From Desulfuromonadales bacterium (GTDB lineage: Bacteria > Desulfobacterota > Desulfuromonadia > Desulfuromonadales > BM103), in contig JACZKE010000004.1 of assembly GCA_014860225.1 (NCBI GenBank), forward strand, positions 1-58,363: a DNA stretch of 58,363 bases. The letters run 5' to 3'. This document shows, piece by piece, positions 30,427-36,923 of this stretch. Position 1 is the stretch's first letter. Each line of letters opens with the position of its first letter. The notes below the pieces were generated by a model that was given only the letters and a program-made list of their open reading frames with translations, was not told the DNA's origin and searched no databases. The position numbers were made by a program, and so were the translations under genes.

Positions 30427-30478
30427 GCAAAATCACTGAAAAACGGTTAGGAGTATTTATGAGCTGCAAACGAGCTAG

Positions 30479-30616
30479 TTTTCGTCCGGAAACGGCCCTT
30501 TTCCGCAATCTCTGCGTCAATCGGCGGATTTGATTGTGCGGCGTAAAATACTACGCCTCCGCTCAAATCCTTGATTTCCTTGACCTTGCGAAAAATTGCT
30601 CGTTTCCGGACGAAAA
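30479..30616. repeat. R1 MITE-like repeat, copy a
   Basis: 138 bp bounded by perfect 16-bp terminal inverted repeats TTTTCGTCCGGAAACG and CGTTTCCGGACGAAAA. No coding capacity. About 94 percent matches copy b by eye, in inverted orientation. It is followed at 30632-30644 by the short motif TGGAGTTTCCGGA also found beside copy b. Confidence 0.85.
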
Positions 30617-30673
30617 CTGTGCATCTGTAACTGGAGTTTCCGGATGGCAACGAGCTAGTTTCCGTATGGACGT

Positions 30674-31954: not shown

Positions 31955-32093
31955 TTTTCGATCTGGAAACGAGCAATTTTTCGCAAGGTCAAGAAAATCA
32001 AGGATTTGAGCGGAGGCGTAGTCCTTTACGCCGCACAATCAAATCCGCCGATTGACGCAGAGATTGCGGAAAAGGGCCGTTTCCGGACAAAAA
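31955..32093. repeat. R1 MITE-like repeat, copy b (inverted)
   Basis: 139 bp, inverted relative to copy a at 30479-30616. The terminal repeats are slightly degenerate (TTTTCGATCTGGAAACG and CGTTTCCGGACAAAAA). It lies between the binding-protein gene and the permease gene and is read-through open in the permease frame, which falsely lengthens that frame by 36 codons. Confidence 0.85.
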
Positions 32094-32113
32094 CTGAAAC
32101 AGGAATTGACACG

Positions 32114-34912: not shown

Positions 34913-34962
34913 GCTGGAGGCTGGGGACTGGTTTTTGCCGTTGCCAGCCCCCAGTCTCCAGC
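34913..34962. terminator. Large hairpin between convergent azlD and SDR genes
   Basis: GCTGGAGGCTGGGGACTGG and CCAGCCCCCAGTCTCCAGC are inverted repeats matching at 17 of 19 positions, placed between convergent stops. It probably terminates both. The GGCTGGAGGCTGG motif is echoed as tandem CCAGCCT units at 45713. Confidence 0.65.
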
Positions 34963-35726
34963 TACCGCTTCTCCCTATGTATAGCAAAAGGCCCCCAAGC
35001 CTGATCGATAGACATGACCTCAAGACTGTTGATATTCACATGAGCAGGCCGGTTGACTACCCAGGTCACTGTCTCGGCAACATCGGTAGCGGTCAAGGGC
35101 TCAGTGCCGGCGTAAACCTGGGCCGCCTTGCCTTCGTCCCCCTTGAAACGTACGTTGGAAAATTCAGTTTCCGCCATGCCGGGCTGAATGCAGCTCACCC
35201 TCACCCGTGTGCCGAGCAGATCAGCACGCAGGTTGCGAGAGAATTGTGAAACGAAGGCTTTGGTGCCGCCGTAGACATTGCCGCCGGGATAGGGCCAGGA
35301 GGCCGCCGTGGAGCTGATGTTGACAATGTGGCCCCGATTGCGCTCCACCATGCCCGGCAGAATGGCCCGAGTGCAGTACATAAGCCCCTTGATATTGGTA
35401 TCGACCATTATATCCCAGTCTTCAATGGCAACCTGGTGAGCCGGCTCAAGACCAAGGGCTAGCCCGGCATTATTGACCAGCACATCAATTTTGCGAAAAT
35501 CTGCGGGCAGAGACGCGACAGCGGATTCGACTGCTTCGTGATCGCGCACATCAAGTTGCATAATGTGAACCGCGGCTTCCCCCGCGAGTTCGTCACGTAT
35601 TTTTCTTAATTTCTCTTCGCGGCGGGCCGTAAGAATCAAGCGGTTGCCTTCTGCTGCAAAAGCGCGGGCACAGGCTTCACCAAAGCCTGCTGACGCCCCT
35701 GTGATAAAAATAGTTTTTACAGACAT
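34962..35726 (-). CDS. Short-chain dehydrogenase/reductase (YdfG-like)
   Basis: A 254-residue classical SDR. The cofactor-binding motif is FITGASAGFGEACARAF (Rossmann TGxxxGxG). The NNAG motif is VLVNNAGLALG and the catalytic triad is Ser in NISSTAASW with Tyr/Lys in YGGTKAF. It resembles YdfG-type 3-hydroxy acid / malonic semialdehyde NADP dehydrogenases; the real substrate is unknown. AAAGGTG lies 5 nt before the ATG, inside the end of the upstream selenoprotein gene. The two genes are 2 nt apart and so are co-translated. Confidence 0.92.
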   Translation of the reverse strand: MSVKTIFITGASAGFGEACARAFAAEGNRLILTARREEKLRKIRDELAGEAAVHIMQLDVRDHEAVESAVASLPADFRKIDVLVNNAGLALGLEPAHQVAIEDWDIMVDTNIKGLMYCTRAILPGMVERNRGHIVNISSTAASWPYPGGNVYGGTKAFVSQFSRNLRADLLGTRVRVSCIQPGMAETEFSNVRFKGDEGKAAQVYAGTEPLTATDVAETVTWVVNRPAHVNINSLEVMSIDQAWGPFAIHREKR

Positions 35727-35728
35727 GA

Positions 35729-35956
35729 CTACACCTTTCTGTTTGCTATTTGTTTCAATAGCAGCATTTCATCAGGGAAGGTTCCGGTAGTTTTTTTTGA
35801 GTAGACAAGCTCATCATCAACCACCACTTCAAAAACTCCACCGCTCGATTTGATCAATTTCACTTCAGCGTCACAATGTTTCTTTAAAATGGCTGCCAGA
35901 CTGACAGCTCGGACTTCATAGCCTCACATGCCACAATATTCGATGCTCGCCTTCAT
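35729..35956 (-). CDS. SelW/Rdx-family selenoprotein with in-frame TGA (Sec11)
   Basis: ATG at 35956 with GGGAG 7 nt upstream, TAG stop at 35731-35729, 75 residues if TGA at 35926-35924 is read as selenocysteine. The product reads IEYCGM-U-GYEVRAVSL, giving the Rdx/SelW CxxU redox motif (Cys8, Sec11). The conserved GGVFEVVVDDELVYSKK and TGTFPDE follow, the normal SelW-like thioredoxin fold to the C-terminus. Coding similarity continues on both sides of the TGA and a SECIS-like hairpin follows it, so this is a selenoprotein, not a pseudogene. The operon is 35961 gene - selenoprotein - SDR. Its substrate is unknown; relatives are thought to act in thiol redox. Confidence 0.88.
35892..35908 (-). 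promoter_or_regulatory. SECIS-like hairpin for the UGA at 35924
   Basis: On the minus strand, 15 nt after the TGA, GCTGTCA GTC TGGCAGC forms a 7-bp stem. Its apical CAGTCUG resembles the GCAGGUCUGC loop of the E. coli fdhF SECIS that SelB binds. The loop and spacing fit a bacterial SECIS by eye. Confidence 0.65.
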
Positions 35957-35960
35957 TACT

Positions 35961-36242
35961 TTACTCCCGGGAAGAGTCAGGGCTTTCCTTCAACTTTTCT
36001 TCAAACCGGCAGATGGTTCCCTCAAGGATTAAATTATTCACCCCCATGCCGATATAACCGGTTTGACCGTATGTATCGTAAAGTCCCAGCTGTTCGATCA
36101 ATTCTTCAACCTCTTCTTGCAGGGGTTTTCCGTTCTGTAGTTGATCTGCAATTGCAAAGATGCGAACTGCCAGGTAATCAGGAAGATCGTCCTCCTGCTG
36201 AGCCCGTACTGTTGCCATGTTTAATCGAGTCAAAGAATCCAT
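35961..36242 (-). CDS. Conserved-looking hypothetical protein (93 aa)
   Basis: A 93-residue acidic protein, predicted mostly helical (QEDDLPDYLAVRIFAIADQL, EEVEELIEQLGLYD), with no signal peptide or membrane segment. I do not recognise it. I chose the ATG at 36242 with GAGG 9 nt upstream; a TTG at 36257 would add five residues. The stop TAA overlaps the ribosome binding site of the selenoprotein gene, so the two are an operon and may work together. Confidence 0.65.
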   Translation of the reverse strand: MDSLTRLNMATVRAQQEDDLPDYLAVRIFAIADQLQNGKPLQEEVEELIEQLGLYDTYGQTGYIGMGVNNLILEGTICRFEEKLKESPDSSRE

Positions 36243-36527
36243 AGAACCAATCCTCAATCGCCTTCTTCCGCGACTCTGTCTCCGGTTTATTGCAAGCGGA
36301 GATTTAGCAATAACAACGGAAACAAGTCTTTAAATGTATAACATGAAGAGACGCGCAAACCAAATATTGAGACGTGGGAATGGCTTGATTCATTGGGTTG
36401 TCCCTGAATTTTTGGATGTTATTGCATCAGCCTTTTGGTCTTCATGCCCTGGTTTCTACAACGAAACAGGTGTTCAGGTTATAATATCGTAAAGTTGCCG
36501 CCATGAATGGCCAGTAAAGGAGGGTTT

Positions 36528-36923
36528 ATGTCTGTAGCCTATCCACTCACAATCTTCTACGATGGTGCTTGCGGCGCCTGTTCTAAAGAAATGAGCTACT
36601 ATCGCTCAATCGCCGATCAGCGTGTTCAGTTCGTCAATATCGCAGCAGATGATTTCGACGCAGAATCTTTCGGCAAGACCATTGATGATTTTCAGAAGCA
36701 GCTGCATGCACGTGATGCAAACGGACAATACTTCGCTGGTGTAGAAGCGTTCCGTCAACTCTGGGATGCACTACCTTCTCCCATCTACCCGTTGCTCTCA
36801 ACGGTTATTGGTCTGCCAGGCATCAACCTTGCCGCTCGAACCGGCTACGCCGTTTTTGCCAGGTTCAGGCATTTGCTGCCGTCCAGCCACTCTCCCAGCT
36901 GCCCGCTCGACAAAGATCAGTAG
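36528..36923 (+). CDS. DCC-family thiol-disulfide oxidoreductase-like protein (DUF393)
   Basis: A 131-residue protein with the DCC signature FYDGACGACSKEM near the N-terminus (DGxCxxC). A redox role is presumed. I chose the ATG at 36528 with AAAGGAGGG 6 nt upstream. The C-terminus ends LLPSSHSPSCPLDKDQ. It is divergent from the hypothetical-SelW-SDR operon across 285 bp, so two redox-type genes share this regulatory region. Confidence 0.85.
   Translation: MSVAYPLTIFYDGACGACSKEMSYYRSIADQRVQFVNIAADDFDAESFGKTIDDFQKQLHARDANGQYFAGVEAFRQLWDALPSPIYPLLSTVIGLPGINLAARTGYAVFARFRHLLPSSHSPSCPLDKDQ

Follow-up and report, generated by a model that had tools for sequence, protein, structure and literature searches.

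The locus considered here raises the question of whether a reading frame that contains an in-frame TGA can be a gene in its own right and, if so, how that codon is read. It lies in a 58,363-nt stretch of DNA from a Desulfuromonadales bacterium (the whole of which is called the window below), where a preliminary description, made from the letters alone, had proposed a hidden selenoprotein gene of the SelW/Rdx family. The coordinates it gave were right, and the strand, which it left out, is the minus strand (Table 1). The minus-strand translation begins MKASIEYCGMUGYEVRAVSLAAILKK and runs to 75 residues, with U at position 11, before the TAG; the plus-strand reading of the same interval contains an internal stop (not TGA) and is nonsense. 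That description was correct in almost all respects, and the details of the frame also stood up to direct reading. The one in-frame TGA, at codon 11, occupies the second redox position of a CxxU motif (C-G-M-U), the claimed ribosome binding site is a GGGAG with a 7-nt spacer to the ATG, located within the 3' end of the upstream gene, and the ATG of the next gene (35726) follows the true stop by 2 nt. We consider it almost certain that this is a genuine SelW-like selenoprotein gene, the middle one of a three-gene cluster, with its UGA decoded by the Sec system. The basis computed here comprises homology, selection, hairpin covariation, the presence of Sec machinery and the predicted fold, while what is known of the family would lead one to expect that this organism inserts Sec and that the product carries out thiol/selenol exchange.

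Table 1. Features of the selenoprotein locus, in window coordinates.
Feature	Position	Strand	Remarks
SelW-like (Rdx family) selenoprotein gene	35729..35956	-	75 residues including Sec11; stop TAG
In-frame TGA, predicted to be read as selenocysteine (CGMU)	35924..35926	-	codon 11
Shine-Dalgarno-like GGGAG	35964..35968	-	7 nt before ATG; direct reading
Putative bacterial SECIS hairpin	35892..35908	-	7 bp, loop GUC, begins 15 nt after UGA; covariation
Upstream gene, GSU3529 family protein	35961..36257	-	98 aa; NCBIfam NF045727, 80 bits (cut-off 44)
Downstream gene, short-chain dehydrogenase/reductase (SDR)	34962..35726	-	best NCBIfam YdfG, 361.8 bits (below cut-off 411)
Divergent neighbour, DCC1-like thiol-disulfide oxidoreductase	36507..36923	+	kept in testable genus loci

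A CxxU frame by itself is weak evidence, because nine such frames of at least 75 codons occur in the window. They were counted in a chance control over all six frames, in which 1065 TGA codons lie in frames with an upstream start and 56 of these pass a loose motif-and-length filter. Such numbers would suit the explanation that the present frame arose by chance with a CxxU-like motif, or through sequencing error, but the Pfam Rdx profile aligns straight through the TGA over positions 3-73 of 74 (62.2 bits, E-value 1.9e-16), bearing out the earlier remark that family-typical sequence lies on both sides of it, and eight further genomes of the genus carry this TGA as well. Judged by these sequence comparisons, the chance or error explanation appears already refuted by homology and keeps a negligible probability. 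The profile match through the TGA, together with selection and the covariation of a hairpin, therefore establishes the UGA-containing gene as real, and a simple gene finder would miss such a gene.

Family membership was assessed with C written for U, by the comparison with Rdx/SelW proteins that the preliminary description had recommended. The product scores above the curated cut-offs of both PF10262 (70.4 bits versus 22.6) and TIGR02174 (60.6 bits versus 34.2); with the SelTWH_Campy model NF041051 it reaches 73.9 bits (E-value 8.9e-21), below the equivalog cut-off of 88, so that it is not filed as that equivalog. Across 277 genomes from its class, 109 Rdx matches were obtained in 97 genomes, and all were extracted except one (G023:C41), which covers profile positions 40-73 only and sits in an 824-aa frame. 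According to the preliminary description, homologues with a stop or an unrelated residue at position 11 would have counted against selenocysteine; the Sec column instead holds TGA in 107 of the 108 extracted loci and Cys in the other one, and Cys also occupies this column in the solved homologues 2fa8 and 2ljk. One row in which Tyr replaces the first Cys (L129) was kept. In a phylum sample of 395 genomes, TGA was found in 54 of 59 matches, counted anywhere in the match (one of these also has a TAG), and no stop in the other five; seven of the 59 are common to the class set. Five loci were taken from named records, two of them at 78-79% identity (a Deltaproteobacteria isolate and a Desulfuromonadales MAG), one at 58% (a Desulfuromusa MAG) and two at 55-57% (actinobacterial MAGs). 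All five carry TGA at the Sec column. Among the 11 genomes of the genus, two gave no Rdx match (G010, 59% complete, and G016, 91%).

As TGA is a stop in translation table 11, the locus could also be read as a pseudogene or a 10-codon ORF, with everything past the true stop a mere remnant. We hold this to be very improbable, considering that the same TGA recurs in those 107 of 108 loci across the class, that the sequence past it is under purifying selection and that the hairpin described below covaries at synonymous sites. Over the 52 codons past the TGA, pN/pS between the window gene and 11 genus or family orthologues was 0.14-0.27, a ratio given uncorrected because several pairs are close to saturation at synonymous sites, dS not being computable for four of the 11 orthologues. 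On these substitution ratios, the codons past the TGA are under purifying selection, and the segment is conserved as protein.

The putative SECIS hairpin extends from +18 to +34 (with the U of UGA as 0), and all seven pairs form in the window gene. Covariation was used because single-sequence folding after the UGA is not significant: minimum-energy folds of longer stretches of the window sequence with 5' flank prefer another structure over the 7-bp hairpin, single-sequence folds compared with shuffles are unremarkable (z from -1.89 to +0.14 for three lengths), and the minimum free energy of the window gene alone gives a z of -0.65 against synonymous controls. Rows were laid codon on codon from the UGA, leaving 106 distinct rows once the Cys row (L112) and one duplicate were set aside; two rows that apparently have one extra codon before the hairpin (L127 and L128) were left in unshifted. 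Across these rows 92.9% of the cells of the 7-bp hairpin are paired, compared with 74.1% (sd 1.1, maximum 77.6%) in 500 synonymous-codon controls drawn from the family's own codon pool. Pairing falls to 19-58% when one arm is slid by 1-3 and to 18-67% when the whole hairpin is shifted in codon steps. The mean minimum free energy is -13.9 kcal/mol versus -10.9 kcal/mol in the synonymous controls (mean z -1.0), and 91 of the 106 rows fold below the mean of their own controls.

At +20/+32 the hairpin brings two third-codon positions together. Where both codons encode Ala (99 rows), this pair forms in 96, as CG (27), TA (24), AT (20), GC (14), TG (10) or GT (1), whereas in 10,000 shuffles, which ignore relatedness, the number of paired rows averaged 42.7 and never exceeded 59; among representatives under 80% identity, 58 of 61 pair. 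The apical loop is GUC in 85 and GUU in 16 of the 106 rows (101 together), so that the SECIS hallmarks of a hairpin downstream of the UGA with a G in its small apical loop were recovered through covariation. Covariation at synonymous sites of this kind, as seen in the aligned sequences, is difficult to account for without RNA structure.

The genome also appears equipped to decode the codon. The preliminary description had noted that a genome lacking Sec machinery would contradict its proposal, and a search found selA (617.7 bits), selB (394.4), selD (362.4) and tRNA-Sec (74.9), each above its own cut-off; ARAGORN likewise calls a tRNA-SeC with anticodon tca. The three protein genes lie together on contig 41 and the tRNA gene on contig 56. 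selD follows selA and selB (L135 4672-5703, plus strand, G000:C41) and itself has an in-frame Sec-type TGA at SGUAAK. The selectivity of these profiles is imperfect. Below the cut-offs there are 11 more selB and three more selD matches in this genome, which presumably represent related proteins, and an additional tRNA match that narrowly exceeds the tRNA-Sec threshold (48.2 versus 47 bits) is presumably an ordinary tRNA. Of 14 control genomes, one gave a match above the cut-off for selA, two each for selB and selD and five for tRNA-Sec. Decoding of the TGA outside the Sec system, whether by near-cognate readthrough, a reassigned code or insertion of a different residue, found no support in the analysis and has to contend with this complete machinery, with the Sec/Cys exchange at the redox position and with the SECIS-like hairpin, and we rate it as extremely improbable.

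The reading of the gene as a selenoprotein of the SelW type also agrees with its predicted fold. An AlphaFold model built with six sequences has a pLDDT of 89.7 and a beta-alpha-beta-beta-beta-alpha topology, with the CxxU motif (C8-G-M-U11) near the N-terminus, directly after the first strand (predicted at residues 2-8). SelW-related proteins make up the 21 best-matching PDB chains, with TM-scores of 0.79-0.90 by query length, followed by MIEN1 and mouse SelW (0.73) and then by thioredoxins; by comparison with 2fa8, 2ojl and 2npb, the model has the thioredoxin-like SelW fold. In the mechanism that we propose, SelB with Sec-tRNA(Sec) would decode the UGA at codon 11, guided by the SECIS hairpin that closely follows it within the coding region, and the product would be a small thioredoxin-fold protein in which Cys8 and Sec11 form the CxxU redox site.

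The gene sits between the GSU3529-family gene, which ends 4 nt before its ATG, and the SDR gene in a tight cluster. The SDR, GSU3529-family and divergent DCC1-like genes are found in the same arrangement at L047, L050, L052, L053, L130 and L131, that is, in all four genus loci of the class search with 1.5-kb flanks plus L130 and L131, whose protein sequences suggest that they may come from the species of L053 and L050; other genus loci, with 150-nt flanks, fall outside this comparison. A tblastn search of 35 loci with flanks of up to 3 kb found no SDR or GSU3529 homologue in the remaining loci, and outside the genus loci a DCC1-like homologue only in L038. With an SDR and a DCC1-like gene as neighbours, a redox role is plausible for the product. 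A literature search for GSU3529 found no paper. The cluster of GSU3529, SelW and SDR with the divergent DCC1-like gene, kept in the genus loci tested, offers a modest lead on the function of the family.

Two further features of the window were recorded. A 134-nt repeat is present at 30477-30610 (plus strand) and 31962-32095 (minus strand) as an inverted pair, 96% complementary, which surrounds the gene for an amino-acid ABC-transporter binding protein. At least 40 near full-length copies, including this pair, occur across the genome (40 of 160 candidates scored), the others being 95-99% identical. The repeat, which overlaps 26-nt inverted arms (30468-30493 and 30636-30661) and whose edges fade in a 14-copy alignment, may be MITE-like. 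In addition, a c-di-GMP-I-GGC riboswitch was detected at 2534-2608 on the minus strand (Rfam, 70.7 bits).

The same genome contains a second Rdx/SelW-like gene (L002 1501-1707, minus strand, corresponding to G000:C44:94626-94832, with an ATG at L002 1713), which has two in-frame TGA codons, one at the usual Sec column and one three codons later. In 108 rows of relatives, the column of the second TGA holds mostly Arg (38), Gln (32) or Glu (13), and two in-frame TGA codons were not reported in the other 160 distinct matches (109 from the class and 59 from the phylum, with seven shared). In a tree built from few columns, with weak and partly open forks, this copy is placed apart from the window gene and has a branch length of 0.39. 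It could conceivably encode a functional SelW with two Sec residues in a CxxUxxU site, given that the frame is intact past the second TGA and that pN/pS against eight clade members is 0.28-0.53, near their own mean of 0.37 (range 0.21-0.67). Nevertheless, we consider this unlikely: the gene is the only two-TGA match in the class and phylum sets, its hairpin keeps five of seven pairs, the distance to that hairpin is 9 nt shorter for the second TGA than for the first, close relatives (L045 and L051 among them) stop about 30 codons earlier than this frame, a fragment of an IS110-like transposase is found nearby (24.5 bits, short of the Pfam cut-off of 29), and local GC is 0.57-0.60 versus 0.45-0.55 around. 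Most likely this is a copy in decay, or else one that was hit recently or misassembled; the same picture would arise from a recent mutation or an error of assembly. The open-access literature searched yielded no two-Sec or multi-Sec SelW. The selenoproteome of an Olavius algarvensis symbiont was reportedly the subject of a 2007 paper. The two-TGA copy would be of interest only if translated. Its surroundings include a CheR-like neighbour, for which no homologue beside an Rdx gene was found in the 35 loci searched. The stretch holding both genes has a higher GC content, and they are flanked by a 20-nt palindromic sequence (L002 330-349 and 1892-1911, 1562 nt apart) which, if up to two mismatches are allowed, matches three places in the genome.

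As SelW-like selenoproteins have long been known in bacteria, the window gene is another sequence of an already described type, in keeping with the statement of the preliminary description that the class is not new. A 2006 bacterial survey lists them for deltaproteobacteria, including Geobacter sulfurreducens and Desulfotalea psychrophila (PMC1794560). In a 2005 paper on the Sargasso Sea set, SelW-like is the most abundant selenoprotein family, with 48 genes, and its function is called unclear (PMC1088965), and the GOS study counts 427 SelW-like sequences with a CxxU motif (PMC2398784). NCBIfam models for the family already exist (TIGR02174 and NF041051). In the test genomes of a 2025 paper, NCBI annotation was correct for 195 of 298 bacterial selenoprotein genes (PMC12013277). 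For Campylobacter jejuni SelW, translation past the UGA was shown by Ribo-seq and proteomics (PMC11955535). That protein is a small SelW homologue with UGA as Sec, as is the window product, which is a predicted one and which the Campylobacter model matches below cut-off.

As for structures, the Cys-containing SelW-related proteins 2fa8, 2ojl, 2obk, 3dex, 2p0g and 2oka and mouse SelW (2npb) share the fold of the predicted model and the same place of CxxC or CxxU, 2fa8 having Cys where the window gene has TGA. In summary, the prediction is ordinary and correct, adding one more sequence to a large known family, and its value is that of a clean example, in which a UGA-containing gene recognised in the bare sequence was afterwards confirmed by hairpin covariation at synonymous sites. 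Within the accessible parts of the sources cited, we found no difference of substance from the known SelW-like bacterial selenoproteins, with which the window gene shares the family, the CxxU motif, the in-frame UGA, related taxa and a downstream hairpin with a G in its small apical loop.
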